From Phytoseiulus persimilis (lineage: Eukaryota > Arthropoda > Arachnida > Mesostigmata > Phytoseiidae): DNA of 64,000 nt. How positions within the stretch are numbered: position 1 is the stretch's first letter; each line of letters starts with the position of its first letter. The stretch is from contig CM075101.1 in the NCBI GenBank assembly GCA_037576195.1, forward strand, positions 6,696,001 through 6,760,000. The letters are read 5' to 3'. The translations under genes and the position numbers were made by a program. The notes under the pieces are model-generated. The model was not told the origin of the DNA and did not search any database. It saw only the letters and a program-made list of their open reading frames with translations. Below are positions 12,601 to 60,140 of this stretch, piece by piece.

Positions 12601-15600
12601 CAATACGGAGGCACATGCAACTGCTCATGTAGAACTCTCAAAATGCTTTCGATCTGCAATAGGAGTCTCCGGTCAGCAACCATGGTATCGGATCGCTGGA
12701 AGCAGTATTAGCAGACGATCGTCAACGTTCTCCTACTAAAATTGATGTTCAAGAGCCAGATCCATTTGAAGACCTGCTTGTTATCCAGGAACTCACAAAT
12801 CCTTTCGGCCCGGGAGGATTGAGTCGCTCTCGGCAGGGAGATCAGGAGGCCACAAATGATTAACAGGCGACATCCACAGGACGCCTCGGAGTTGGACGAG
12901 CTGCATGAGGGTGCTTGTTCCAGCTCAGTGAACTCGAGTGCTACGTAGTGAAACGGACCTTCGAGGGAAGCTTCCCCGCAAATCTCATCCCGATACACAT
13001 TTGCGGCAACTAGAAGAAATCCACCGTGGGAATGAGGAGTGAGTTGTGAGAATACGCGGATTTCTGCCGAGCCTTCTACGGAGCTCTTGATCCAACGGCC
13101 AGATAGGGGCTCCGTAGCGATGTTAACTACGTTGCTGTCGTGGGGATCAAGGTGAGCACAAACTCTCGAGGGGACGTGCGCTGCTCAGGCCAAAGTGGAG
13201 CTCGGTTTCATATACTGTCGAGCTCCCACACATTGTGGAGGTCGGAATCACTGCCCCCGTGAAAGGAGACCGCCCCTGCGGGAATACCCGAGAGTTGTAG
13301 GATCGGGTACCAAATTACTCTCTCTCACCGCTAAATCCTCCTGCGTTGAAGCTTCTGGGGCATGGCGATTCGCGTACCGATAGAACTTCGGAAGTTCAAC
13401 TCAACCAATACGACCCTTCCCTCGAGAATGACGCTACCCAAGAGTTGCAGTCTCCCATCTTGCTTGAAGTTCTCAATATCTCTACTGAGACTCCGAAAGC
13501 CATCCTTCAAAGTAAGGTATCGTTCTCAATATTCTCATCTTGATACTCTTTCGTTAATTCACTGGTCAAGCATCGTCAACCATGCCATCGCCTGCTCTGC
13601 TGCGCGCGCTTTTCGGGAAATCCGGCTTCATACCGGAGGACCTAGCAGATCCCCGCGTGTTTTTGCCCGTGGGTTTCATGATTCTCGAGCCAAATTTGTA
13701 TTTCGCACGTCACACGACTTTGTGTATTCGTATGCGTTCCACCCTTGTTGCGTCAATGGAGTGGATATCTCTTTCAGTCAGTTTCTATGCTTCTCCCAGG
13801 GATCCGTCAAGACTCTAGAGCGTGGGGATTTGAGCGCGAGTTATTTGGAGAGAGAGAGTGAGAGAGAATGATTCGGATTCGGGTAACTGGGATATGCAGA
13901 GTTGGAGGTCCGCTCCGATCTCAGGAACCCCTGCTCTCCTCCTTGAAGTTTTTGGAGGACAGTATCGATGCATATCATCACCCGTTCCTGCCACATCGAG
14001 GATCTCTGTTTGCGCTGATGAGCTGGATGCCCCATAAGTAGCTCCGAGCGCTGGTCTCGTTCCGGGGTGTTCCCAGCCTGTTGAATTCTCGTCCATATCG
14101 TACGAGACCTCCGCGAAATGCGCGTCGGTTTGAGCGGTGCACACGAGTGTCCGAAAGAATGTGAGGTGATCAACGGGCTGCATGTTATATTTTCACGAGA
14201 TCCGCATCGTGAGACTTCCTTTCGCTCTATCGCGGAAGTGCTCTGGAGCGGGCGACCCACGCTGGAATCGATCGCCTGCACGGAACGAATGTTCCGTACT
14301 CCTGAGAAAACTCGAAAGAAATATTCCAGCTCGACGGATGTAATGCCGAAGGAAGAAGCCTCGGAGGCAGCTGCACACGCACGATCTGTGTGAATGTCAG
14401 AAGTTCCCGGAGATGAATCGGAGAGAGTTCTCATGCTTCCTCAATCTCAACAACAAAATGGTTGATTTATCAGTGCTGCACAATTTGGCTGCCTTCCACA
14501 GGGCCCTGCATTTTCCAAGTATTATCATATTTATGAGGATCGAAATAGTGTTCTTCCGAGGGACCGTATCGGAACGTGCAGACGCATACATAAAGAATGA
14601 TACACCCTGAGGAAGAATTCGCTTCCCTTTTGGTCCTTATCAGAGCGGGAAAACCGCCTCGAGCCTCGAAGGGATCTTCATGATAGTTTATTCAAGTGGT
14701 GACTCAAAACTAGTGGAGTTCCCGGTATACACGATGCGTTCCAATGAGAACCATGATCGAGGGCAAGGTTTTCTCTCAAGGAGAGAAGCATCACTCAGCG
14801 AAGCTTTCCTGCACCACCTTGGTGCCCACGACTCCATCTTTGGCTGCCCATGATTGCAACGCCGGTGATTCATACGCGCGAGAAAAATAGCGGGCTCACG
14901 AAGGAGAGCTTCGCTCCTGCGGACTTCACGAATGCTCTCTTCACTTCCTGATTCCGTCTTCACCTTAATATTCCTGTGGATAACGATTGAAACCTCGCAA
15001 AAGTTTCTCCTGACTGACTTGGACCGTCTACAAGAGCCTACGGCTCCGTCCTGGAGTATCTCCGGTGAAGTTTCCGAGGAAGGCGGAGACAGCCTATCTC
15101 TGCTCGCTGCGGAGCATTGAAAGGGAGCGCGCGCCGATCAAGATTCTATCCCTACCAAAACCTAGATCGCAATCACATAATCAGCGCACGATCCATTGTT
15201 TAGAACACAGGCGGCCGTTCTCTCTGAACTGTGAGGAAACAACGAGCCGCCTCGAGCGCTCAGACTATCCGAGTTACAGAGCAATTTGCTCTAAAATCGA
15301 GAGCTCCGATTAGGTGCCTGGACTGGAGCTGTGATGATGGAGGTTTGCGGTACCAAGACTATGTTGCAAGCACCTGTAGAGCCTAGCAAAATGAATCGTC
15401 ATTCACACGAGAGTTTCGGTTCGTGCAATCTCCCGGGGTCTTTGAGTTTGCGTGTATGTATATAACGCGAGAGCTCTGAAAAACGACCACCAGGAATTCC
15501 GACGTTGCACTGTTCTCCGGGCACGTGTCGAAGCTCCAACGACCATTAGAGAGAAACGGGCTACGATGATGGTGTCTGCGAATAGCGGATCGCACTATCC

Positions 15601-45200: not shown

Positions 45201-48200
45201 TCGGAAGATATGGCGGCTTCACTTCGTTGTCTTCTCTTCCGGGGATAACTCCTCGATTTTGTCATTTTTCCCCGATTGCTCCTCGCCAGCATGAGCCAGA
45301 GTCCTGATTTTTCTTCTTGCATGTAGATAGCGAAGAGATCTTCCGAACGAACTTGAATGAAGAAGATCCGTGCTCATCAAGGATTTTTGAATGCGAATTC
45401 AAAAAAATGAAAATCGTCGCTTGCAGTTCCCGACGACTCTACCGGGAAAGTGTGCTCCGAATGCAGTCAATCTAGTTAATTCGCTTGCAGATTGCTTCGG
45501 CTACAAATCGAAAAGAACAGAATCGAAAGCGATATACCCGGCGCGGAGCAATCAAAATGGGGACAAATGGTGAAGTCGAGAAAAGGCCTCGAAAGAAAAG
45601 ACAACGAAGTCGAGCCGCCATTTTTTCCATTGAATAGTTTGAGTCTTCCTCTAGTTAGCGGTCACCACACCTTATCTCTGGCTGCTCTCAGACAGAACTT
45701 ATAGCCTGAGGAATCAGACCCATATTTTCCCGTTACACCCCCCTTAAGGCAATGTTTTCAGCGAGATTCATATCGAAACGTCGGATCATGGACTTGCCTG
45801 GAGGGATGCGCCTCGTTTTATATCGCTTCGCACCGTGGTTGGAGCTGCAGGGGTTCCCAGACGATCAGAAATCAGAAGATCCATGGTAGACTATTTTTTT
45901 CAAGTTTTCCGTTTCCAAGTGTGGAACGCCAGCTCGAGCGGTCCGGTACTCGAACAAAGGCGAAAGTCGTCGACCCGACTCTATTGGGACGATTCTCAGG
46001 AACTTTCGAGGGATAATAAGAACTCTACAGTAGAACCTTACACCGACTCGAGTCGGGCCAGCGAGTTCAGGCCGGAAGGAGGCTTCGAGGGAGATTCTAT
46101 TTGATTCCACGGCGCCTGGAATGTAAACTCGAGACGGAAATCAGAATGATAGTGATTTTCCACCGCGAACCGATTTCGAATTCCCCCTCGAAGCGCTCTC
46201 GTGATTTGATTCCAGCCACAACCCGTCATCCGATGCGAAAAGCCGACATGTTGACGCCCGAACGGGCGTTCGGTGAAACCGACTTCCACGGAGGGCGAAG
46301 AGACGCTGATCGAAGCTCCGACCTCCATGGCTTCCGGCTCAAATTGTGTCGTGATTCATATTCCAGGGAGGGTCACAAGAGAGATGCTGCCAAACTCTGA
46401 GGATGTCAAGATCAGCCCACTTGAGGCCCTGGGCGTTTGCACAGGCTGGAAGCTCGACGGATCGAGCTGACTTGATAGGTTCCGGCTGATAACCGCCCGC
46501 TGTTCCGATGACGCAAGCGTTTCAGCGCTGGAGACGGCGTGCTTCAGAAATGCTTCCGCGTGTGCGCAAGCCCATTCTGTTCCCTGCTGTGAATTGTGCA
46601 GCAAGGACTCGCGTTCATCTGCAATCAGCCTGTCACGGTCCAAGTGTACGACTCACAGGTGTACACAGCATGGCAAGAGACCGGAGAGCGCCACACGCTA
46701 TGATCGATCAGGGTTCTTCCAGGTGAGGCTTACGCCTCGGTTCGGTTGTGCCAAAATGGCGCCAAGGTCCCGCCTTGCGGAATCATCCGTTGTTGCTGCA
46801 ACCACGAGAGAATCGAGGAGAAAATTATCACACTGTGTTGATCTACCCAAATTGTCCGATTCTGAGCGTAGATTCCAAACTCAGTTCTCAGCAAACAGGG
46901 AGTGAGCTGAGCTGTGGCTTGCTCGCTCGTTATCCCGCCGCTTTTCGTTCGCGAGGATGCTTGCAACTGCATTGCGCGACCCCACTATGGTTGGTGTCTG
47001 CGACCCGAGAGAATTCCAGGATTCTGAATGCATGAACGTGTGCGTGAAACGTACATAGTCACTGAGCGAACTCTAGATTCTCTGGCCAACCCGAACACAC
47101 TCGCAGCGCATCTGTAAGCTGACGCAACAGGTTGTGAGTCCGTAATCCGCAGATGCCACGGGATCCGCTCGCGTAGCGGAACTTCCGTGACTGCGTCGCA
47201 TCAGGGAGTGTTCCGGCGAGAGAGAGCCCTCGCTGCTGCAAGCGAGGAATGCTGCGTAAAAACCGCTTGACGAGATTCAGTTTCCTGGAGCACGGCATTC
47301 GGGCCGAGCAGCCTGAGGGGCCCATGACACAAGTGCGGATTCGCGTGGTCACTTATACATCTCTAAATCGAGATACCGTCGGAAGCCTCGATTGCGGAGG
47401 TAGCATTTCAATATCGGCGGAAGCATGCAGGCCATCATGTCTGCGCACTGTGGCAATGAGGCACGGGATTTCCGCACTTTTCCGACGAGGGACGAAACCA
47501 ATACTATGAATTCATAGGCTCTCGACCCGTGTAACTGAGGAACGGGAAATAAGACTTCATGGACAGGCCTTTCAACTCGTATTTGGGAGCAGCTTCGCGA
47601 ATTCGTTGCCTGACCATCTGGGTCGGATCGCATCTTGACAATGTCGGCGAAGGTTTCCTCGTGCATAAAACACCGTGACCGATGAGCCGAGTAGATTGTC
47701 CTGGAGATCCGTCGAAGAAAAATTCAAGTTCATTCCCGAGTGCGGCCCTTTCCACTGCGCAAGGTTCGGCAGTGAGCCGGTGCTGCTTGCGAGCGCATGC
47801 GCAAGTTTCCCCATCCCCTAGCGTGCAACAGGCTGCTTCTGATTCGATTCTTTTTTCCATGCGATCATGAGTTCCACACTCGTTGATGAGAATTTCAGGC
47901 GTTCTTGTGTCGACGAAGCTACGATCAATAGACTATGGACCGCGATCACTCGAGAGAATCTAGGCGCTCCGCAACCGAGGGACGACCCGCTCGTGGGGTA
48001 GAGGAAATGGCAAACGGAGAGAGAGAGGGCATTAACCATCCCGAAAGCCTGGGTTCTCCGGCATTGACGTCGCCAACTTGTGCCGCATGCTCGTGAAGCC
48101 GCTCTCGTCAGTCGTTGAATTTCACTGGCGCTACAGGCCACAAGGCTTGATGCGGAGTGCCATCATCACGCTCTGAGTTTCGACATTGATATTCTGCGAA

Positions 48201-48892
48201 GTTCCAGAAAACGGCAACCCTGTTCTCGACTGCGTCGAACAGGTGGTTGCCTGGGCCCGCAGGCAGCAGTTACCTCGTTCTGCCTCATCCAAGATCGACC
48301 AAACCGTGAGAAAACGCTAAGTTTCACCTCGGATATCTGTAGCTGAGGCGGCCTCACTGAAATACTCTCGCAGCAGTCAGTCGCGCGAGGGACGATAGGG
48401 AATTTCGCGCGGATCCTCCCTCGAGGGGTAGAGAATCTCGGATCGTACGCAAAAACATCGAGCTCGTGCAGAGAACGGCCTTGGCCCCGCCCGTGCCGCC
48501 CGAGCGGAATGTTTGTGAACTTGTCGCCAGCTAGCACCAGATCATGTTGAGCTCTCAGTGAGAGATTCCGAAATTTGGTGCGGTTGTCCTGAACGCGAGC
48601 TCGTTTTATGAGCCGTCCGTCGATGTGAAAGCTCTCAGCTTCTTAGTTTCGTTTCCTCCCTACGCTCGGCTCACCGCAGTTTGGGACTTGCGAACTGGGT
48701 GAGGCGCTCAGGTGATTTTCCTGGAATACCCGTTGTGACCCGTCGGATCGAGATTCGAGTAGCAAGCAATGTTGTGCTCCGTCTTCTGCACATGGGTTCG
48801 GCACCCTCTCGCCCGTGGAAGCACGTATGTCGTAATCTTGGGAAGAGGTTCCCAAGAGGCAGCTCGTCCGTTCCGTTCACGAAGCGTTTGTT
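42206..48892. other. No defensible gene
   Basis: About 6.7 kb. A 214-codon plus frame (44520-45164) and a 119-codon minus frame (44495-44854) overlap; neither has a domain. Protein-like short frames at 46273-46470 (plus) and 47059-47352 and 47504-47860 (minus) could be exons, but no consistent chain emerged. A possible first exon for the small membrane protein lies at 42499-42515. A degenerate tandem repeat is at 44211-44300. Confidence 0.35.
44211..44300 (+). repeat. Degenerate tandem repeat, period about 30
   Basis: Copies of AACCTNGATCATTNCAAC begin at 44211, 44241 and 44273 (spacing 30 and 32 bases), with partial matches after each. In one frame this reads as a repeated NLDHFNHSDF-type peptide. 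No gene is assigned here. Confidence 0.4.
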
Positions 48893-49541
48893 TCAAAACC
48901 GAAACCTTGGCGAGTGCGGCCTCAACAGGAGCTCGCAGGATTTCGACGACGAAACTCTTCCATTCATGGACTCCCTGAGCTCATGCAGCGGCTGGGAGCC
49001 TGGGGTTCGAACGTTGCACGTCCCGAGCTCATCGAGGAGCTCAATGCCTTTCAGATACTCGTGGAAATCCGTCAGGAGAGAATTCTGACCGATGGAGCGA
49101 TTGGTCTGATCGGGAGCCCTCTGCAGGATGAACTTTCGTTCGGACAGGACAGATGGGTTCTAAAATCACATTCAGACTGTTATGAGTCTGGAAGTTCAGA
49201 CACGATTCATTAATCCATCAATCCATGGACTTACGGGTAGATGAGTGGACAGATTGATGGATTATGCCATATTGCCATGAGAACTGATTAACCCAGCCAT
49301 CAGAGCCTCATTTATTCGCCTCCCTACATGAATATATGGGAGGAGTAAAATGATGAATGCCTGAACTTCTGAGCTCTAGTTATGACTTTATCACCTCCGA
49401 GACATGCGTGAGCGAGACACGCGATGATTCCTCCGTTCCCCTGCGAATACCGAAGGAAATCCGCAGACCTCGCCCAAGGCAACAAAGAATTTCCCGCGCC
49501 TTTTTTTGTCGGATTTCGAAGGTTACATTCTCTAGTGGCAT
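48893..49541 (-). CDS. Candidate two-exon gene, unknown protein
   Basis: First exon 49541-49395 starts with ATG in a good context (CAAAATGCC) and reads MPLENVTFEIRQKKARE; it ends at GAG|gtgata in phase 0. The second exon, 49159-48893, follows acceptor gattttag, also phase 0, contains TDFHEYLKGIELLDELG and stops at TGA. The result is 137 residues with basic N-terminal and mixed helical C-terminal parts. Third-position GC is higher in this frame than in the overlapping plus-strand frame. The intron of 235 bases carries a 13-base inverted repeat. A donor CCAAG|gtttcg near the end could extend the gene leftwards. No family recognised. Confidence 0.4.
49211..49264. repeat. Perfect 13-base inverted repeat with 28-base spacer
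   Basis: TAATCCATCAATC at 49211-49223 is exactly complementary to GATTGATGGATTA at 49252-49264. It would form a strong hairpin, and lies in the proposed intron of the 48893-49541 candidate gene. It could be the remnant of a tiny inverted-repeat element; no flanking duplication was noticed. Confidence 0.6.
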
Positions 49542-50124
49542 TTTGCCTTTCTAGGCCCTGCCCCAACTAGCTCCATGGAACCGAACAGAGATCCTTTCTC
49601 TTCTTTCTAGTTTGACCAGAACGACTCACACCTTCTTCAGCGGCTGCCTCGCCCTTCAGCAAATTCTTCCTCGGGAACGATCGACTTCGCAAACTTGCTT
49701 GTATCCTTTCAAGGCTCCTCGATCGGGCTGTGACGTCGGAGGGGTGACCTTTCGAACGAAAAGAAACAACCACTCGGAATTTCGCTGGGTGCTGTTCACC
49801 GGAACGAATCGGAAAGTTCATGCACTTGAGGGGAGGCGAGCTGCTTTGGGCCATGATTTGGTGGTGCGCAGTGGTGGGCGCACTCTCGGGCGTGACCAAA
49901 GGATCAGCGATCTCGCGGAGCGTAGAGTATCCTTGAGGCGCGAAAGACTCGCGTTGCTCAATTCATTCATTCCAAACTTGAGTGGATTCCCCGATCAGCG
50001 TCGAGTGCATTGTCATCATTGCTATCCCCTGTCTCCTCGGAATTCGTCTACCAGATAAACGGCAGCTGGAGATCTGTCCTCTGCGTGCTGGGCGTTTACA
50101 CACAGAATTCTCTGTTTACACTTC
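49542..50124. other. Short intergenic stretch, possible upstream exon of the voltage-sensor gene
   Basis: A 148-codon plus frame ends at TAA 50058 and the same frame is open again from 50059 to 50224. The second part holds the proposed first coding exon of the voltage-sensor gene. No splice site linking the two was found, so nothing is called here. Confidence 0.3.
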
Positions 50125-52503
50125 ATGCTGAAGCGCCGGAAGCAGGTTCTGAAATGGGAGGAAAAGCGCCGCAACATTGAGAAAACGTGGCTCGACTTTG
50201 CGCTCGAACCTTGTCCCTCGTAAACTGGGCTTGCCCCCCGTTGGGGTTTAGAGCAATAATCTTAGAATAGAACAACCCACCCCGGATTCACCCGGGTCCA
50301 GGCCGCAGTCGGTTACCCGGTTCTCTTCGTGGGGAAGGATCGTCTCCGAATCCAGGAGCTGAAGAGTCCTCTATGAAACGCTGGCGCCGTTTCCTGAGAA
50401 GTTGCAATGACGACGGTGGGAGCTCGTAGAAAAGAATGAGCTCTGTCCCTCTCGGGAATCGAGGGATTTCGTGGGCATGCTAGTACAGCCAAGGGTCGAC
50501 GTCCGGCGCGGGCCTCGAACCGCACGTGAGCCGTCAGCAAGTTCCACGTCGCATCCACACCGAGCACTTCCCTTGAGCCAAGATGATGCGAGTGTGGATT
50601 CTGAGCGCAACGCTCCCGAGAGGAGTTCGATATCCAGCCGATTTGATCGTTCAACAGATCTGAAAGCACGAATCATTTCAGGTTCACAGAGAAGATATGG
50701 GAAGTCCTTTACAGTTGGTGGTTCAACGCCATCGTAGTGCTGCTGGTCTGTGTACAGAGTTTCAGCGTTTTCATCGTCACTTTCATTGACACGGAAAAGA
50801 TGAGGATCAAGGGTTAGTAGTGAGCGAACCCCTCCTCCGTCTCCTCCGTCAGAAATGTATGGCGGCGGTGTAGAGTAGCGTTGCCACGAGCGCGCGCGTT
50901 ACGAAGCCGGAAGCTCTCGGAGCTAGCACCTCGTTCACGCATCACGCACTCAGTATATCTTTCGGACGGCACGGGCACGCGGATCTGAATCCAACACTGG
51001 CTCACAGCTGTTTTTGTTCTCAACAAGCAGAATACTCGCCGGAAAATCCGTTAGCCATGTGGCGGAACTGCAGCGAATTCCGGCCTTCATTCCTCAACAA
51101 CGCAGATCCTGAAGGTCCTCGGATGGTCTGTGGAACTCTGATACTGAGCATTCAGCTCTTATTTTTCGTCGAAGTTGTCGTCAAGCTCGCGACCGGTATC
51201 GGCCGGTTCGACTTTGACGTTTTCGAGGTGAGTGAGGCGGCTTCCCGACCAGCTCGCTCGTAAGCAGTCTGCGATGCTCTGAGACTCCCACCGATTCGAA
51301 AGGTGAGGAGACTCATCCGTGTTTCCAGAAGTCTCCTGAATCGATCTCAGATTGACTGATCTCTTGCAGATAGCTGATATCGTGTTCGTGGTGGGAACAA
51401 CCGGATTCAGCGTCTACTACACAGTTTGTCTTCCGAGGACTCACAAGAGTCGCTACTTACAATTCTTAGTTCTTGTTCGATTGCTTCGCGTGGTGCGCGT
51501 GGTGCAAGCTCTTGCCGAATGCCAGAACCGAGATCTGACGGACTTGCTTAAAGACACCCAGCGTTTTAAGGAGGTTTCCGACAACAAAGCTGAGATTCTT
51601 CTTCTGAAACTCGAGGATTGCAGGGTAGCGTGAGCGACGGACTTTCTCCAGCCCATTTCATGAATCTGATCCGCTCTGAAGCTTCTCAAGTTATCCCCAA
51701 TTTTCCAGCAAGAGATTGCACAGTTGAGGAGGGAAGAAGACAAGCGTTCCAAGAAAGGGCCCGCGAACCGACGACTGCGCGGAACCCAGTCGCTAACTTC
51801 AATCTATGAGCCAGCGGTTCAGAATTACGTTCGACAGAAAGTCAAAACGCAACCCTCTGTCGAAATCAATATTCAGACCCAAACAGAAGGTTTCTCATGC
51901 GACCGATGTCGGCTCCCACAATCGGTGGAATTCATGGCGACTCGTCTCAGCTTTCTGACTGTGAGAGGCGCTCTGAATGAAGTTGAGGCCCAAGCCCGAC
52001 TGTCGCAAATGTCGGCGGGAGCGCAGACCGTCCCTCATCCGAGGGCGGCTCTCATCACGAGCGCCGCAAGCGATCGACGTGCCGAGCGCTTCTCTCGCCG
52101 GGTTTCGCATTCGTTGCTAGTCGGCCAGATGTGCTCGACCCCAACGATTTCGCCAGGGCTGATTTCCATGGAGAGCGGGTACAATTCCTCAATGTCGTCG
52201 GACAGGTATCGACAGTCCACCAGTTCGCCCTTCTCCGTTTACAGGTGATCGCTCTTTTCCAGCCGTCGTATTGTTTGAAAAACTCATCCAAATCAGAGGG
52301 AAGCTCGAGTTGTCTGGGCGCACGGCTGAGCAGTGATTCCAGAGCCGTTCTTTCCTTCCAGCGAGAGTATTCCCACAACATCGAGCTCATATTATTCGTC
52401 GCGACGGAACACAGTGTTCCTCTTTCCCGATGCTCGACACAATGATAGCCTCGAATCTCAGGTGAATGAATATGAAAAACGGAAGATTTCCATAACAAGC
52501 AAC

Positions 52504-52545
<42 letters not shown>

Positions 52546-52675
52546 AATTATTCAACCAGGAATAGCAGCATTGACGGAATCTTTTCAAATCTCTCTTTTG
52601 CAGACCGGGACCATTGAACTCAACGTGCTGGACGAAGTATCCGAAGTCAGCCCCGCCGAGGGCTCCGACGTGTGA
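50125..52675 (+). CDS. Hv1/TMEM266-family voltage-sensor protein with long cytoplasmic tail
   Basis: Exons 50125-50219, 50682-50812, 51031-51227, 51370-51624, 51709-52244, 52362-52461 and 52604-52675 join in phase into about 461 residues. Four helices match the Hv1 voltage-sensor domain. S1 is WWFNAIVVLLVCVQSFSVF (46-62). S2 is IQLLFFVEVVVKL with Glu123 and Lys127. S3 is FEIADIVFVV with Asp144, nearly identical to Hv1. S4 is LVRLLRVVRVVQAL with Arg178, Arg181 and Arg184. A coiled coil follows (LKDTQRFKEVS to QEIAQLRREED), as in dimeric Hv1. The S1 aspartate needed for proton selectivity in Hv1 aligns with Gln57, and the second S3 acid is lost, so it is probably a sensor or a channel of different selectivity, closer in build to TMEM266. 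The tail of about 240 residues is Ser-rich. The first exon is the least certain. The end could also be a donor (GACGT|gtgagt) leading to more exons. Confidence 0.82.
52505..52542 (+). repeat. (AG)19 microsatellite in intron of the voltage-sensor gene
   Basis: Nineteen uninterrupted AG units between the sixth and seventh coding exons, 61 bases before the last acceptor. On the other strand it is a (CT)n tract. Confidence 0.95.
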
Positions 52676-54131
52676 GTTTCCTCTTCTCGAGTAGAATAGC
52701 CGCCGAAAAAGTGGAACTCTGCTGCAACGGCAATGAGGGATTCGGATGAGTCCTCGTCGGGGATGCTTGCGAATACCCTCCAAGAACGACCCGACCCGGA
52801 AAACAGCAAGATACGTTCTTCTCGGAAAGGAGAACATCAGCTGACACACCAACTGCATAAAATGGTCAGCGTGCTCCGGTAGCGAGCGCTGAATGCCGGT
52901 TGATCTAGGGCTACTTGTGTTGAGGGAAGCTTGTGGTGCGAACATCGTTCCCTCCACCGAGGCAAAACTCTTTGAAGTCGAATGCTTTCGGTTTCTCGGT
53001 TACTCGAATTCGCAGGTTGAGTGGTGATCATTGAGAGCTGTGGAGTCGTCGGGGGCAAGGCGACGGATCGGTGGAAATGGGAGGGAGCGACGCTCCTGGA
53101 AACCTTCGAGTTCCGCCCCTGCCGGCTCCTTGGCTCACCGCGACACTGGGCGCGAGCTTGCTCATGAATTTAGCGAATTCATCCGTGAGGAACGGTGACG
53201 CGGAAGTAATCTCCCGTTTCTAACTCACATCGAACTCATTCAGATCACCCAACGAACGACGGAAGAATCAAAATGAGGAGACGATTGTGTCGACAAGTTT
53301 CGGGTGAGCCAGATTCAATGCTGGAAAATGCCGCCGTGCGGAACCAGCGTCGCGCATGCGTTATGGGTCCGACCAATCAGAACATTCCGGAGATCGCAAC
53401 AAGATCTCTCCAGCAATCAAGCTGGCGTTATCGGAAACAGGCGAGAACTTGAGATTCCATCGATGATTGACTTCCGTCTTCCAGGATCCTTGTCTCGGAC
53501 GATATCAGCGAGTCGAGCGAAGGGATCGTCAGGGAACTTGACGACGAGGAAGTCAGTGCTTTCCGTTCGCTGGATACAATCTATCTTGGATGATATACGC
53601 TTGAATGTTGCAATCGACGTACAGCCACGGATCGTTTTTTAGAACCATCGTACAATTTTTTCCCAGGTCGGGAGTGCCGGAGCCGAACAAATCAGCGCTG
53701 CCAGCACCGATCCATCCGTCGCTTGGCGTTGATCCCGACCATGCGCCGCTCCAAGCTTTCTCAGCGAATTATTGTATCCTTCAAATTCCTCTAAACGTAC
53801 TCGGACATCGCACGGAAGAGTTTTCGGAACAGCCTTGAAGTCCAGCTGGTCGAACTCGGTATTCGTCCGACCAAATATGGAACGAGGAGCCAAATTCCAC
53901 ATCGAGGACAGAGTTGAGATAGCTCAGAGAACGGTCTGAAACGCGCTCACATGGAACTGTTGGAGCGCGGTTTCAGGGGTCCGTTGCCTCAGTGAATTTC
54001 TTCCCCTCCTTGCTTTTCGAGCTCCGATTCGGTTCGCGCGATCACAGACCTCTTAGTACCAGCCGGCTCCTCCGGATGCCGAGCATCACTACGAATCGTG
54101 ATGATGGAGAGAGTTGCCGCGAGAACTGAAC

Positions 54132-54689
54132 ATGAAAGAAGACAATCGAACAGTACAAATCGCGTGGCAGGGGTGCGTGCCCAAATCTCCGCGGAACTCA
54201 AACACATGCAAACGAGCAGAAAGGCGAGGAACTAACAATTCGACAAAGCACATACCCTGCGTGTTGGAGGCGACACCAGCGACGCTTACACAACGCGCAC
54301 TAGAGGCTGCTCTAAAACATTTCGCCCGTGGGCGAGCAGCACCTACCCATCCCCAGAAAAGAGGAACCAATAGCCATACGCAGCAATCACTCGACTATGC
54401 CGACGTTCTTGAAGACATTCAGGGAAGAAACCCGCGTCGATGCTGTGGAATGAGCTCAGCATATTCTTATCATCCTTTGAAGCTGCGTCCGGAAACGCCG
54501 GGGACATCGACTCGGTCCATGCTTGCGGAAAAGCAAGAAGATGATCCCGAAGGAGTCCAACAGATGAGCGAAGAGCGGCACCGGGAGTTGGGTCGCTCCG
54601 CGGCGCGTCACGATCTCTCGGGCGCACGACGGCGATTCTGCTCGCGACTGAATCGTATCCCAGCTCGAGTTCCGGGCGAGCAGCAGTAA
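54132..54689 (+). CDS. Candidate intronless frame, unknown protein
   Basis: An uninterrupted frame of 185 codons from ATG 54132 (MKEDNRTVQIAWQG) to TAA. It is basic, Arg- and Gln-rich, without hydrophobic segments or known domain, and ends RIPARVPGEQQ. A 156-codon minus frame (54343-54813) covers much of the same DNA and is equally protein-like, so the strand is uncertain. Chance alone could give about one frame this long in the window. Confidence 0.25.
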   Translation: MKEDNRTVQIAWQGCVPKSPRNSNTCKRAERRGTNNSTKHIPCVLEATPATLTQRALEAALKHFARGRAAPTHPQKRGTNSHTQQSLDYADVLEDIQGRNPRRCCGMSSAYSYHPLKLRPETPGTSTRSMLAEKQEDDPEGVQQMSEERHRELGRSAARHDLSGARRRFCSRLNRIPARVPGEQQ

Positions 54690-56565
54690 CGATTTCACGA
54701 TAGATCGAACCTTGCCATTGCATATTCAAATGACACCCCCTCGTAAATACCCAGCATGTCAGGAAGGAAAATAACCCGTAGTTCGCGATGTTTTGGAACT
54801 GAGCACAACCCAACTCGATGCCCCTGATCTCTGAGCGTCACTCCGCATAGTTCGGGCGCGAGCGCCCTCGCTCTTTCTCGCTTTCACGAAATTCCCTTAT
54901 TCCCGAAATATTTCATTGTAAGATGATACCGCGCTCTGGTGCACCTTCGCTCTTGAGAAGGTTTGGGAATTCCTCCGACGTCACGATTCTTCGGCAAGTG
55001 ACATCACTCGCCCTCTCCGCTGCGTAAAATGTATTGGAAATGAACCCCGTTAGACACCCTATACGAGTTCTGCGCACCGTCTTTATTATGTGTCATGGCG
55101 TTTTTCGTTAAGAGCATTGCGCATGCGAACGTTCGCCTCTGCAGTCCAGGAAAAAGCTAACTTCTTTGAAAAGTTGGCAATCGGTCTCATTCTCAGTTGA
55201 GATTGCTCTATGCTACACGGGCTTCAACCACCACTTCGGAAGCGTTCTAATAAGTTTCATTACCTAATCAAATCGTAAGAGAGATGACGATCTTTTTGTT
55301 TTTAGAGAGGGTGCAAGTGGTCATTCTTCCCACCGAAACCGTGCATCAATCGGGCGGGCGCCGCGCTTTTGTTTCTGAGCCGGGGTCTCAAATGTACATA
55401 CTTACAATTGGCGATTGTTGTCAGCTTGTCACCAATCGACCAGGAAGATCTGAGTTGTGAAGCCTCCAAAGAAATTATTCCAAGTGCATGATGACGTCTT
55501 CGAGAAAGGAGGAGGAGGATTGCGTTTCCACGTTGTATCGGAAAACACATATGTGCATACGAGCAAGAGTTTCGGCAATGTTTTCAGTCAAAAAAGTAGT
55601 TACTCATACGCCAGACTTCGAGGTAAACAGAAGAGGCTTCAGATTGATCATCTGAATCATATTTCATGCCGCCATGAACATTGACGTTGAGCCCGAGAAA
55701 CATCGAGACCGATCTCAGACTCATGTCCGCAGATGGGCGCTGTGCTTTATGAAGACTCCGAAGTTTTGAGTCGAACTGGGATCGGAGTTGACAGAGGAAG
55801 CTCATTTCGGAACGGAATTCGGGAAGTTGCATTCTGTCATGCTCAGAGTCGTTATGTCATCATGTGATCATCCATAGCTGAGACAATCTAGCTTCAATAA
55901 TGTCTTGAATGGAATCCTGTCGTCACGGCCTGTTTCTGGACTCACAAGCTGCTAGGCCCCCATCCTCCTCCAAGGGTCCTAAATGGAAGTTCCGAGGAAC
56001 CCCCTGATGGACTTCAACCGCTGTCGTCCCCATCCAGAATACTTCACATATCCTAGTAGAGTTTGTTTGTACGGAACTATAGCACCCACCAATCAGGGTT
56101 TCTCTCCACATCTATGTGGGCCACTGTTCGTATTTTATTCGCTCACCGAGCGCCTGCAGTCTTGAAAATATCTCCCAACTCTCAATAAACTCAAAACAAA
56201 CTTTTGTTCTCTGCGTTCTCCTCGAAATTTTTTTCGTCCAGTGGCGAAAAATGACTCGATGTTCAACCACCAACGAGGCAGCGTATGCAGGTGTGCTGCA
56301 AGCTCGGACCGTACAGGTATCCGAGGATACAGCTTAATAATTTTGTTTCATGCGGCAACGACTGGTTGCATTCCCTACGTGTTGTAATTTGATTGAGCCA
56401 GTGCTCCACCTCACGAACTCCAGGAGGATATCGAAACGACATCTAGGATCTCGTTCCCTCGATTTCATATCCCAGCTCTCCCGTTCCAATCCCGGAGAAC
56501 GGCCTGCGAAATCGCGATCAAGCATAGCTACATTATCGATCGGAAAATGTTTCGACCTTTCTCCA

Positions 56566-56571
56566 TTTATT
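56566..56571 (-). promoter_or_regulatory. Possible polyadenylation signal of DARS2
   Basis: AATAAA on the minus strand begins only six bases after the DARS2 stop codon, so the 3' UTR would be very short. A second minus-strand AATAAA lies near 56136 and is the alternative. Confidence 0.35.
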
Positions 56572-56577
56572 GAGAGT

Positions 56578-59516
56578 TCACTCGGCGGTCTCTGCTGTCG
56601 TTCTCTTTCTCTCAGATCTGAGCTGTTTCAAATGAAAGTATTCAAGATCGTCGTCAGTCAACTCTCTTGGAGCGTCGGCCATCAGATCCCGCCCCTCATT
56701 TGTCTTGGGGAAGGCGATTACATCACGTATCGATGGTACGTTGCATAAAATAGCCATAAGACGATCCAATCCCAACGCAAAACCGCCATGAGGAGGAGCG
56801 CCGCTATCTAAGGCGTTGAGGAGATGCTGCAACTCCGCACAATCCTCTTGGAGCAACTCTTGTAGGATTTTCCTGTAAGTCAGTTCTTGATTCAGTTCAG
56901 CTCATCTTCCAGAAACGTCTCTATGATCGGGTACGTTTTGGCTTCTTCGGATCCTACTGCTCAATGAGCTTCGAGTCGCCATCCCAACTGAGACTCACTT
57001 TTGAAGGCTCGACGAATGTATCCGGATGGACCCTCCTCCGACCTCCCATCCGTTTACGACGAGATCAAAATGCTGACCTTTGACCTTCAAGGGGTCGGTG
57101 TCGAGATATCCGATGTCATCGATACGCGGTGCAGTGAACGGGTGATGCTCCGAGATCAGATTGCCATTCTGGCCCTCCGAAAACAGAGGGAAGTCGGTGA
57201 TCCAGACAAATTGGAAATCTGTGAGGCAAGGGATAGGCTGGCCTCGAAAAACTTCGGCAGGGATCCAGTCGGAAGTTATGCGACGAGCTTTCGGGGAGAC
57301 AAAAAGTGATGCACATCCATGTCTGAAGCTCACCATTTTCCTTGCCCTGTAGGAGGCCGGACATTTGTGCGAAATCGGTTCTGACTTTTCCGAGCGTTTT
57401 CAGAACGGAGCTCTCTGGTCCCCAAGCGGTGATTGTCATGGAGCTCTTCTCTAGACTACTCCTCTCCACCAGGTGCATAATCGGTGATTTGACGGTTCCA
57501 TCTTCACGTGCTATCACTTCCGATATACCTGTGGGGATGATTCGGACACCAACTGAGACCCGCCCTCACATGACGTCTCGCATTTGGCGAAGTGCGGGAC
57601 ACGCCGTAAAATGTTCACGTGTTCCTCCTCCATGTTATGTCAACTTTCCTCTAAGTCTACAAGGTTCGTACCTGGCAGTCCAAACTGTTTAGCCGTCCTC
57701 TGCCATTCCTGCAAATGCTTTTTTTTCACCAGCTCGTTTCCTCCGGGCAACCGTAGAGCTTTGATGCAATGACCCTTGGGTAAACTTTTGACCAACGTTG
57801 GCAGAAGCTCCTGCGCATCTTCGATGAAGAGGTCGTAACGCAGGTCTGGTTTATCAGAACCATACTTGGCCATGGCTTCCCGGTGAGAAATTCTGCGAAA
57901 CGGTTGCAATATTGTCGGCCATACCCCTCGGACCAAGTCTTCTAGAAGACTCATCAAATCCTGCATGGTCACGAAGGACATTTCGATATCGACCTGTGTG
58001 AACTCCGGTTGACGATCGGGCCTGGCTCCTTCATCGCGGTAGCATCGGGCGACCTAGGAAAATAGTGATAGTGTCAATAAGATGAACGATAGATCCAGAC
58101 GAGTCTTGGCATCGATGAACGCCGACTGCCGAGCTTTCCACGATATCTGTGAGAGAGCTCAAGTTTGTGAACTCAGTCACCTGGAAATAGCGGTCGATCG
58201 CACCGACCATCAGCAGCTGCTTGAATTGTTGAGGACTCTGTACTAGGGAATAGAACTCGTGGGGGTGTGAATGACAAGCCACTGGGAACTCCTTAGCTCC
58301 CCCAGGAGTGCGTCGGAACAGCGTTGGCGTTTCAACCTGTGGAGGATGTTCAGAAGATTCCCTTAACCTGATCAAGCGGGTCTGATAGAATCTCCCTAAA
58401 ACTCCAGTCCAGAGCAACAGTTCCTTCTCGGCTGTGTATGTTTTTTCATGTTATAGATGCGTGTCCGCGCTAGCTGATCGGGATTCGAACCTCACAGAAA
58501 CCATAATTATCGATGAGTCGAGTACGGAACGCATTTGTCAGTTTCGATCGCAATCTCAAGTTTCGCTGCATTTCCTCGTGACGTAAATCGATATACCTGA
58601 AAGTCAGATAGCCCATCGATTACCTCCTTGATAGTCGCGCCAGTATTCCGCGGGATGGCATTGGACTTCAATGTATTCCTTGGTTGGAGACTTTTTCGAT
58701 TTTAATGCGCTCTGACCGATGTTCGAGGCGCAACATCTCGTTCTTTTTCTGATACTCGCGTGGCTGGAAAGGGATTTCTCCACATGGGTTCAGGACTGTC
58801 ATTTCGTCCGCTATGATCTCCACCTGTCCCGTCGTCATGTCTCGACGCGCTTGACCATCAGGACGCCTGACAACCTGCAAGAGGATCAGAGATCGTCACC
58901 TTTCGAGCTTTCCAGCACCCGTCTTTCCAAGGCTACACTATCCCCACGTATTAGTCACGAATTTCCAATATTTCGGGTTAGGGACATCAGAAGCATATCG
59001 GACTCGATAGGAGAGAGTAGGCTTGTTTTGGATTGAATATAACTAATCGTCTTAGTCTGATTCCGTGGATATGATATGATCCCACCCTCAAGTCCACGGA
59101 TGGCGACACCAGGAAGGAGTCTCTGGTACTTACAGTGCCCTTGACTCGTAACACGCTTTCGATCGGTGTCTTCTCCATAGTGTGCGCCAATGATTTGTTG
59201 AGAACGACCTGGGGATGCTTGTCAGTTTTACGAGAACGCAGTTGCATATTTTTCGGCGATCATCAAATCGCACCTCAGGAATCAATCCTTTGCTTCGAAC
59301 AATCTAGCTGACCTGTGTGACACCGAATCCATCCCTGAGGAGGAAAAACTGCATCCGTTTGAACTGAAGCCATCCGAATAAGGTAACTCTCGTGCCGATG
59401 TCACTTTCGGTGACCTCACCACAAGTATGCGTTCGTTCTGAAATCGCAAGAGCCCACCTGATATCAGTAGATATCACACCTCCCGCAATCAATGAGCCGG
59501 TACCACGGAGTGACAT
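56578..59516 (-). CDS. DARS2: Mitochondrial aspartyl-tRNA synthetase
   Basis: Nine exons on the minus strand: 59516-59313, 59208-59134, 58874-58717, 58596-58491, 58336-58181, 58053-57672, 57552-57334, 57287-56999 and 56872-56578, all in phase, giving 627 residues (human DARS2 has 645). It charges mitochondrial tRNA-Asp. The N-terminal stretch before ERTHTCGEV is the likely mitochondrial presequence. The anticodon-binding OB fold follows ([14 protein letters not shown]). Class II motif 1 region includes [17 protein letters not shown] and [12 protein letters not shown]; motif 2 is [18 protein letters not shown]; the bacterial-type GAD insertion is replaced in the middle by a weakly conserved block; motif 3 is [13 protein letters not shown] near the end. 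The YRDE and GLDR signatures needed for ATP binding are intact. Introns are 46 to 259 bases, the shortest being 57333-57288. The start ATG 59516 is the first in frame for this exon. Confidence 0.96.
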
Positions 59517-60140
59517 AGAAGTCGAACTGCCGCTACCACATTCTCACAATCTTCACAAACCTGAAAATTTGTTCTGATTTTTGCTCTGGAAGCTGCTTGG
59601 CGCCGACGTCGGTGTACTCGGAGATAATTGGCGAACGTTAACATTAAGGTGTCTGGCTAGAGAGATCTTCCCATCGGTTTTTGTCACAGCAATCAGTGAA
59701 GAGAGCACACGGCGGGTTGCGCGAATTCCGCCAATGGAACTCATCGTTCTCCGAAGCAGGCTCACTCTGAAATGGCCAGCAAGAGGGTCAGCCAGCCTGA
59801 CATCCAATAATTCCTCTGCTGCAGGAGTATCGTTCAGCTAGCGAGTCATGGTCGGCAAGAGGTCCGCTCGTTTGCACAAGATTCATTCGCGAGTTTCCAA
59901 CCACTTCCAGTGTTTCTTCGACCCTCTGTCGTATGGAACGAAGGAATATCCTCTCCGCGCGGTTCGCTTCGTTTCGTAAACAAGATGAACGCATTGTGAA
60001 GACGCTGCGCGTTGAGCGGCCCGGCATTGCTCGAACTCATCGAAATCAAAACGCGCGTGTGGAATTTCGCTTCTGCCCCGGACATTCGGATGGAGGGACA
60101 ACGTCGTTCGACTCATTCTGGAGACGAAATGAGGCACATC
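59517..60140. other. DARS2 upstream region, no gene called
   Basis: About 620 bases between the DARS2 start and the end of the next minus-strand gene. Plus and minus frames overlap here (a 168-codon plus frame begins at 59933), but none has a domain or splice support. Confidence 0.4.

Follow-up and report, generated by a model that had tools for sequence, protein, structure and literature searches.

Known voltage sensors related to Hv1

The acids D1.51 and D3.61 of the proton channel Hv1 (D112 and D185) have been reported to be selectively conserved in Hv1 and to be required for its open state, in which they hold S4 (PMC5065317). In the same report, mutants of D112 were permeable to anions, with the exception of D112V, which was non-functional, and D112E, which resembled the wild type. 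A protein that departs from Hv1 at both positions is TMEM266, which carries Val111 and Met185 there and keeps the S4 arginines and the charge-transfer centre (PMC6392501). It dimerises via a coiled coil, after which about 250 more residues follow, and it has been described as a vertebrate-only protein of unknown function. Voltage-dependent fluorescence was obtained with TMEM266, and no current is reported for it in the account of PMC4148356, even when the mutation V111D was introduced. Orthologs of TMEM266 are published as being over 80% identical in S1-S4.

Among invertebrates, a 2023 review (PMC10377628) mentions a second Hv-like protein of Saccoglossus kowalevskii, with Gln61 and without the S4 Trp, and considers it unlikely to be a proton-selective channel. 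According to the same review, two Hv genes each are present in Ixodes (tick), Varroa and Parasteatoda (spider) and three in Limulus, and two large Hv proteins of Limulus (>450 aa) have Glu in S1. In a survey of insect Hv proteins, the motif RxWRxxR was required for inclusion (PMC8804609), so that proteins like the one described below are omitted from such surveys by design. Among the papers listed in our literature search, which covered mostly journals outside subscription, none dealt with this arthropod form. If an invertebrate with a normal Hv1 did possess a silent sensor of the TMEM266 type, it would be a second case for asking what the role of a pore-less sensor is. It would also offer a natural test of which residues a voltage sensor needs in order to act as a proton channel.

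The gene model and its key residues

The window analysed here is a stretch of 64,000 nucleotides from the mite Phytoseiulus persimilis. The window gene was modelled with seven exons on the forward strand, 50125-52675 (Table 1), which splice in frame to a product of 461 aa; all six introns have GT donors and AG acceptors. Splice sites were scored with an approximate metazoan matrix and expressed as percentiles, and all of them fell between the 85th and the 100th percentile except the donor of exon 1 (76th). Since this donor is weak, the gene may have a different first exon. The weak donor and the high divergence of the domain could also be taken as signs of a gene-model artefact or of a decaying gene, whose key residues would be missing through relaxed constraint. 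This is highly improbable, because all seven exons are free of stops and frameshifts, which argues against a pseudogene, and because it is the proton-specific residues that differ, whereas those of charge transfer and three arginines of S4 have been retained.

The presumed stop codon is overlapped by the donor GTGAGT at 52672, which lies at the 97.7th percentile among the GT sites of 48001-60000. The gene therefore has two possible ends, and it probably extends by three predicted exons to 53732, giving a longer protein of 524 aa. A (GA)n run is found at approximately 52505-52542, within intron 6/7.

Table 1. Exons of the window gene, with predicted additional exons, and the ordinary Hv1 predicted in the same genome
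Feature	Position	Strand	Content
Exon 1	50125-50219	+	N-terminus, start codon at 50125; splices in frame to exon 2
Exon 2	50682-50812	+	S1 helix: Gln57 (CAG, 50755-50757), Val61, Val64, Asp68
Exon 3	51031-51227	+	Long S1-S2 loop with NCS sequon; S2 F120, E123, K127; S2-S3 linker to E141
Exon 4	51370-51624	+	S3 D144, Ser155; S4 R178, Leu180, R181, R184, Gln187; also opens the possible coiled coil, up to C225-R226
Exon 5	51709-52244	+	Remainder of the possible coiled coil (QEIAQLRREE); initial stretch of the Ser-rich cytoplasmic tail
Exon 6	52362-52461	+	Tail
Exon 7	52604-52675	+	Tail; TGA stop at 52673-52675, or donor GTGAGT at 52672 (exon then 52604-52671)
Predicted exon 8	53244-53303	+	In frame; acceptor 89th, donor 99th percentile; picked by eye
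Predicted exon 9	53485-53551	+	Acidic stretch; in frame; acceptor 98th, donor 93rd percentile; picked by eye
Predicted exon 10	53667-53732	+	Contains the stop; in frame; acceptor 99th percentile; picked by eye
Predicted own Hv1	C1:6319967-6323041	-	Five exons, 236 residues

The hydropathy profile of the longer model has four membrane peaks, at residues ~49-67, 108-126, 145-163 and 171-189, and after residue 235 the highest 19-residue window reaches only 1.03. With four peaks and none further in the tail, the gene appears to encode a four-helix voltage-sensor protein with no sign of a pore domain.

The earlier note on this DNA had reported an Hv1-like sensor that keeps the S2 Glu/Lys pair, the S3 Asp and the three S4 arginines, but has Gln57 at the position of human Asp112 and no second acid in S3. 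This observation is confirmed. Alignments with Hv1 place Gln57 in the D112 column, and the remaining S1 columns pair V116 with Val61, E119 with Val64 and D123 with Asp68. In S2, F150, E153 and K157 correspond to Phe120, Glu123 and Lys127, and in S3, E171 and D174 correspond to Glu141 and Asp144, whereas the D185 column holds Ser155. The S4 columns pair R205 with Arg178, W207 with Leu180, R208 with Arg181, R211 with Arg184 and N214 with Gln187. The charge set of Hv1 is thus kept (S2 F/E/K, S3 E/D, three S4 Arg), but the S4 signature RxWRxxR is replaced by RLLRVVR. The H140 column depends on the alignment (Gly110 or Asn88) and never holds His, and the H193 column holds either His166 or Thr165. 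From the Zn ligand set E119, D123, H140 and H193, which is not kept as a set, D123 is matched by Asp68. The Hv1-specific residues that are missing beyond the two named in the earlier note are therefore the S4 Trp, E119 and H140. The finding holds and goes somewhat further than first stated; its kind is already known. To call the S1 acid lost, however, is to infer a direction of change.

No acid, whether Asp or Glu, occurs within residues 40-67, so that none lies one helix turn from Gln57; the flanking acids are E39 and D68. A scan of both introns flanking exon 2 (50220-51030) for GT-AG exons of 75-220 bases with a fitting phase gave no alternative S1 exon. Among the best 12 of the 51 candidates, the nine most hydrophobic were all variants of exon 2 itself, and the tenth had a hydropathy of only 0.64. 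It could be argued that the protein is a proton channel still, with an unusual selectivity arrangement. The large second Hv proteins of Limulus (over 450 aa) are described as retaining the S1 Glu (PMC10377628), and a single base separates GAG from CAG, which turns Glu into Gln. However, this is very unlikely, given the acid-free S1, the absence of D185 and the fact that V116, the position reported to stand in for D112 (PMC5065317), is occupied by Val61.

The S1-S2 loop of the window protein (51031-51227) has an insertion of 22 columns relative to human Hv1 and to the Hv1 of the same genome. Its NCS sequon is possibly glycosylated on the extracellular side.

A predicted ordinary Hv1 and the kinship of the window protein

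The 181 Mb, 127-contig assembly that contains the window was searched with several queries. Human Hv1 (E <= 10) matched two places, the better being C1:6322052-6322192 (-) with an E value of 3.5e-4, and the window gene was not among the matches. From the better place, an ordinary Hv1 was predicted (Table 1); it is on the contig of the window gene, at a distance of ~423 kb. Its S1 reads LIVCALIILDIILIIVELLAEM, in which the equivalents of D112 and E119 are kept. It also has the S2 His and F/E/K, the D185 equivalent, S4 as RLWRVGRLLNG and a coil with Cys; the D123 equivalent is Glu and the H193 equivalent is not His. The intron preceding its S3-S4 exon has a GC donor, and its last exon was picked, for its coil, from 14 candidates with a fitting phase. 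The predicted protein scores 245 against human Hv1 and is 24% identical to the window protein.

A query with S1-S4 of this Hv1 (E <= 10) recovered three exons of the Hv1 gene itself, along with two weak places (E 0.027 and 0.14), and the window gene was again not among the matches. The window protein itself matched 13 places, seven of which are the window gene; the other six had E values of 0.008 or worse, and the best two of these fell in the tail. These searches thus found two Hv-like genes, one apparently ordinary and one altered, and are too blunt to exclude more. The two genes have one intron position in common, in phase 0 just before S3 (after the E171 equivalent), and no further common position was seen. 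With roughly 4 x 4 combinations over some 600 possible sites, the single common intron could be due to chance. A search for the pattern TTAGG x6 gave no match. Genes for arginine kinase and triosephosphate isomerase were identified, and one of each was compared with the PDB: with its two domains summed, the kinase scored best against two double-domain kinases, followed by single-domain arginine kinases (7re6, 9fho and 4bg4 among them), and the isomerase scored best against 5eyw. Horseshoe crab, spider, shrimp and tick proteins are among such entries, which points to a probable arthropod.

The kinship of the window protein was assessed by comparison with several voltage sensors. A search of the PDB at E <= 1 returned four sequences, two of Ci-VSP (0.011 and 0.017), one of an Hv1/VSP chimera (3wkv, 0.038) and one of human Hv1 (5oqk, 0.062). 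S1 appears in this search just as a sub-significant gapless stretch (-1.1, -1.3), in an unchanged register that places Gln57 at D112. The Pfam family Ion_trans was matched below threshold, with 13.8 bits against a cut-off of 25 bits. In contrast to these weak database matches, the likeness to human Hv1 exceeds chance in pairwise comparison including the coil, with a local score of 91 (z 10.4, 500 shuffles). For the voltage sensor alone, the score was 85 against human Hv1 (z 10.3), 76 against Ci-VSP (z 9.4), 54 against the genome's own Hv1 (z 6.2) and 48 against TPTE2 (z 2.4). When other segment limits were used, z became 10.5 for human Hv1, 8.5 for Ci-VSP and 3.2 for the own Hv1; a T-type calcium channel, two of whose domains were compared in the same way, gave 0.8 and 2.6. 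The value for the own Hv1 is near that of a calcium-channel domain. With Ci-VSP almost as close as human Hv1, and the window gene recovered by neither Hv1 query, the kinship is loose. Taken together, the window protein appears to be a pore-less voltage sensor which, among the sequences tried, is nearest to human Hv1 and Ci-VSP.

The term 'Hv1-like' used in the earlier note is therefore apt for the pore-less architecture, with its four helices, the S2 F/E/K, the S3 E/D and three S4 arginines. Strict membership, by contrast, fails: D112, E119, D185, W207 and N214 of Hv1 are Q, V, S, L and Q in the window protein, H140 is not His, and Ci-VSP is about equally distant. The long tail and the weak coil are further differences from Hv1, and the protein does not sit clearly within that group.

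These scores raise the question of whether the gene is a relative of VSP that has no phosphatase, or belongs to a separate pore-less lineage, and is not Hv kin; it would be a bare voltage sensor still. Ci-VSP is the top PDB match, its S4 has the same RLLRVVR, its S3 likewise closes with YTV, its score approaches that of human Hv1, and neither Hv1 query recovered the window gene. However, TPTE2, the other VSP tried, scored low, and a query of the genome with S2-S4 of Ci-VSP (E <= 10) returned three weak places (best E 0.046) that did not include the window gene. In addition, one intron is common to the window gene and the genome's Hv1. No phosphatase was found near the gene either: Pfam finds no PTEN-like phosphatase domain in the 461-aa protein, and the only HCxxGxxR in the six frames of the window, at 15508, lies far upstream with stops on either side. 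Kinship with VSP rather than Hv is, on this evidence, rather unlikely.

In the alignment, Asp occupies the S1 column of Gln57 in both Ci-VSP and TPTE2, which means that an S1 Asp alone is no mark of proton channels. The review cited above describes Ci-VSP as being without the typical S1 acid (PMC10377628), whereas the alignment made here shows Asp. Relatives of exon 4 were also sought in collections of prokaryote and viral contigs; as expected, none of the 211 and 31 pattern matches, respectively, was confirmed.

A putative silent voltage sensor

Of the two options offered in the earlier note, a non-conducting voltage sensor or a channel with a different ion, the former fits the sequence better. 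We consider it probable, though by no means assured, that the window gene encodes a voltage sensor that does not conduct protons and acts like vertebrate TMEM266. Three arginines of S4 and the charge-transfer F, E and D of S2 and S3 are kept, and S4 would still be moved by voltage. The acids by which Hv1 selects and passes protons, Asp112 and Asp185, are replaced by Gln and Ser, and the protein would pass no current. By forming a coiled coil, the extension of S4 may hold a pair of subunits together, and S4 movement would be relayed to partners via the Ser-rich cytoplasmic tail and not to a proton pathway. Proton extrusion in this animal would be left to the ordinary Hv1 on the same contig; since such an Hv1 is predicted, the proton function need not depend on the window gene.

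The likeness to TMEM266 extends over a four-helix sensor without a pore, three S4 arginines, the charge-transfer F/E/D, non-acidic residues at 1.51 and 3.61 (Gln57 and Ser155), a long tail past the possible coil with no extra membrane peak, and a similar length (531 aa for TMEM266, 461 or 524 for the window protein). It is these features, with the possible coil as the weakest point of resemblance, that make a silent voltage sensor the most likely reading. The proteins differ in S1, where Gln is found and not Val. The window protein also is without the Zn ligands E118 and H139, although Asp68 is kept at D122, has no extra S4 Lys, and has a weaker coil. TMEM266 keeps the S4 Trp, which is absent from the window protein. 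An identity above 80%, as among TMEM266 orthologs, is unlikely for the window protein, judging from its 27% with human Hv1. The loose kinship, the weak coil and the absence of the S4 Trp were counted against the silent-sensor reading.

A voltage-gated channel that conducts another ion, with anions or cations passing when S4 is up, would be the other outcome of a neutral polar residue in S1. Neutral mutants of D112 in human Hv1, bar D112V, are reported to be permeable to anions (PMC5065317, PMC10377628), and Gln differs from the Val found in TMEM266 in being polar. However, the stabiliser of the open state, D185, is missing as well (Ser155), as in the non-conducting TMEM266 (Met185), and such a channel is unlikely.

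The silent voltage sensor would have possible counterparts in other invertebrates. The second protein of Saccoglossus, compared here by its one-sentence description in the review, likewise has Gln at the selectivity position, no consensus S4 Trp and a typical Hv in the same species. The large Hv proteins of chelicerates are similar in that a long second Hv-like gene stands alongside a short typical Hv, and the identity between the two types is reported as ~30% in Limulus, against 24% for the pair found here; the large Limulus proteins have Glu in S1, in contrast to the Gln of the window protein. It is conceivable, if doubtful, that the window protein is a member of an ancient family of silent sensors in animals that has so far gone unrecognised; its marks would be Gln in S1 and the lack of the S4 Trp, and it would exist beside an ordinary Hv1 in arthropods and hemichordates. 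Such a family would be the invertebrate counterpart of TMEM266, passing voltage on to cytoplasmic partners with no ion flow.

The earlier note also held that the coiled coil matches that of Hv1, but the coil of the window protein is weakly supported. The heptad signal after S4 was matched by 6.2% of 2000 shuffles (p 0.062), compared with 0.4% for human Hv1. Compared without gaps, the coil scored between -3 and 0 against human Hv1 when in register and 3 when shifted by 3, which is at noise level; in register, the window protein scored -20 against the own Hv1, and the own Hv1 scored 36 against human Hv1. A PDB search with the coil (E <= 10) returned four matches with E values from 0.28 to 0.46, none of them Hv1. 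The coil Cys lies at +41 from the third S4 Arg in the window protein and at +38 in both human and own Hv1.

In the surroundings of the gene, a Pfam scan of 10 of the 135 stop-to-stop open reading frames in the window (at least 110 aa) gave no match at 0.01. The whole window was also free of Rfam matches at gathering scores and of tRNA genes in a scan with the bacterial code.

The tail, which had been put at ~240 residues and likened to that of TMEM266, is indeed long and Ser-rich (17% Ser in the 524-aa model), but counted from residue 239 it comprises 223 residues if the protein has 461 aa, or 286 if it has 524 aa. Antisense to the tail exons runs a frame of 314 aa (52055-52999, -), an open frame alone. 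If the stop at 52673-52675 is used, the protein ends in SDV (52661-52675), which we take to resemble a class I PDZ ligand.
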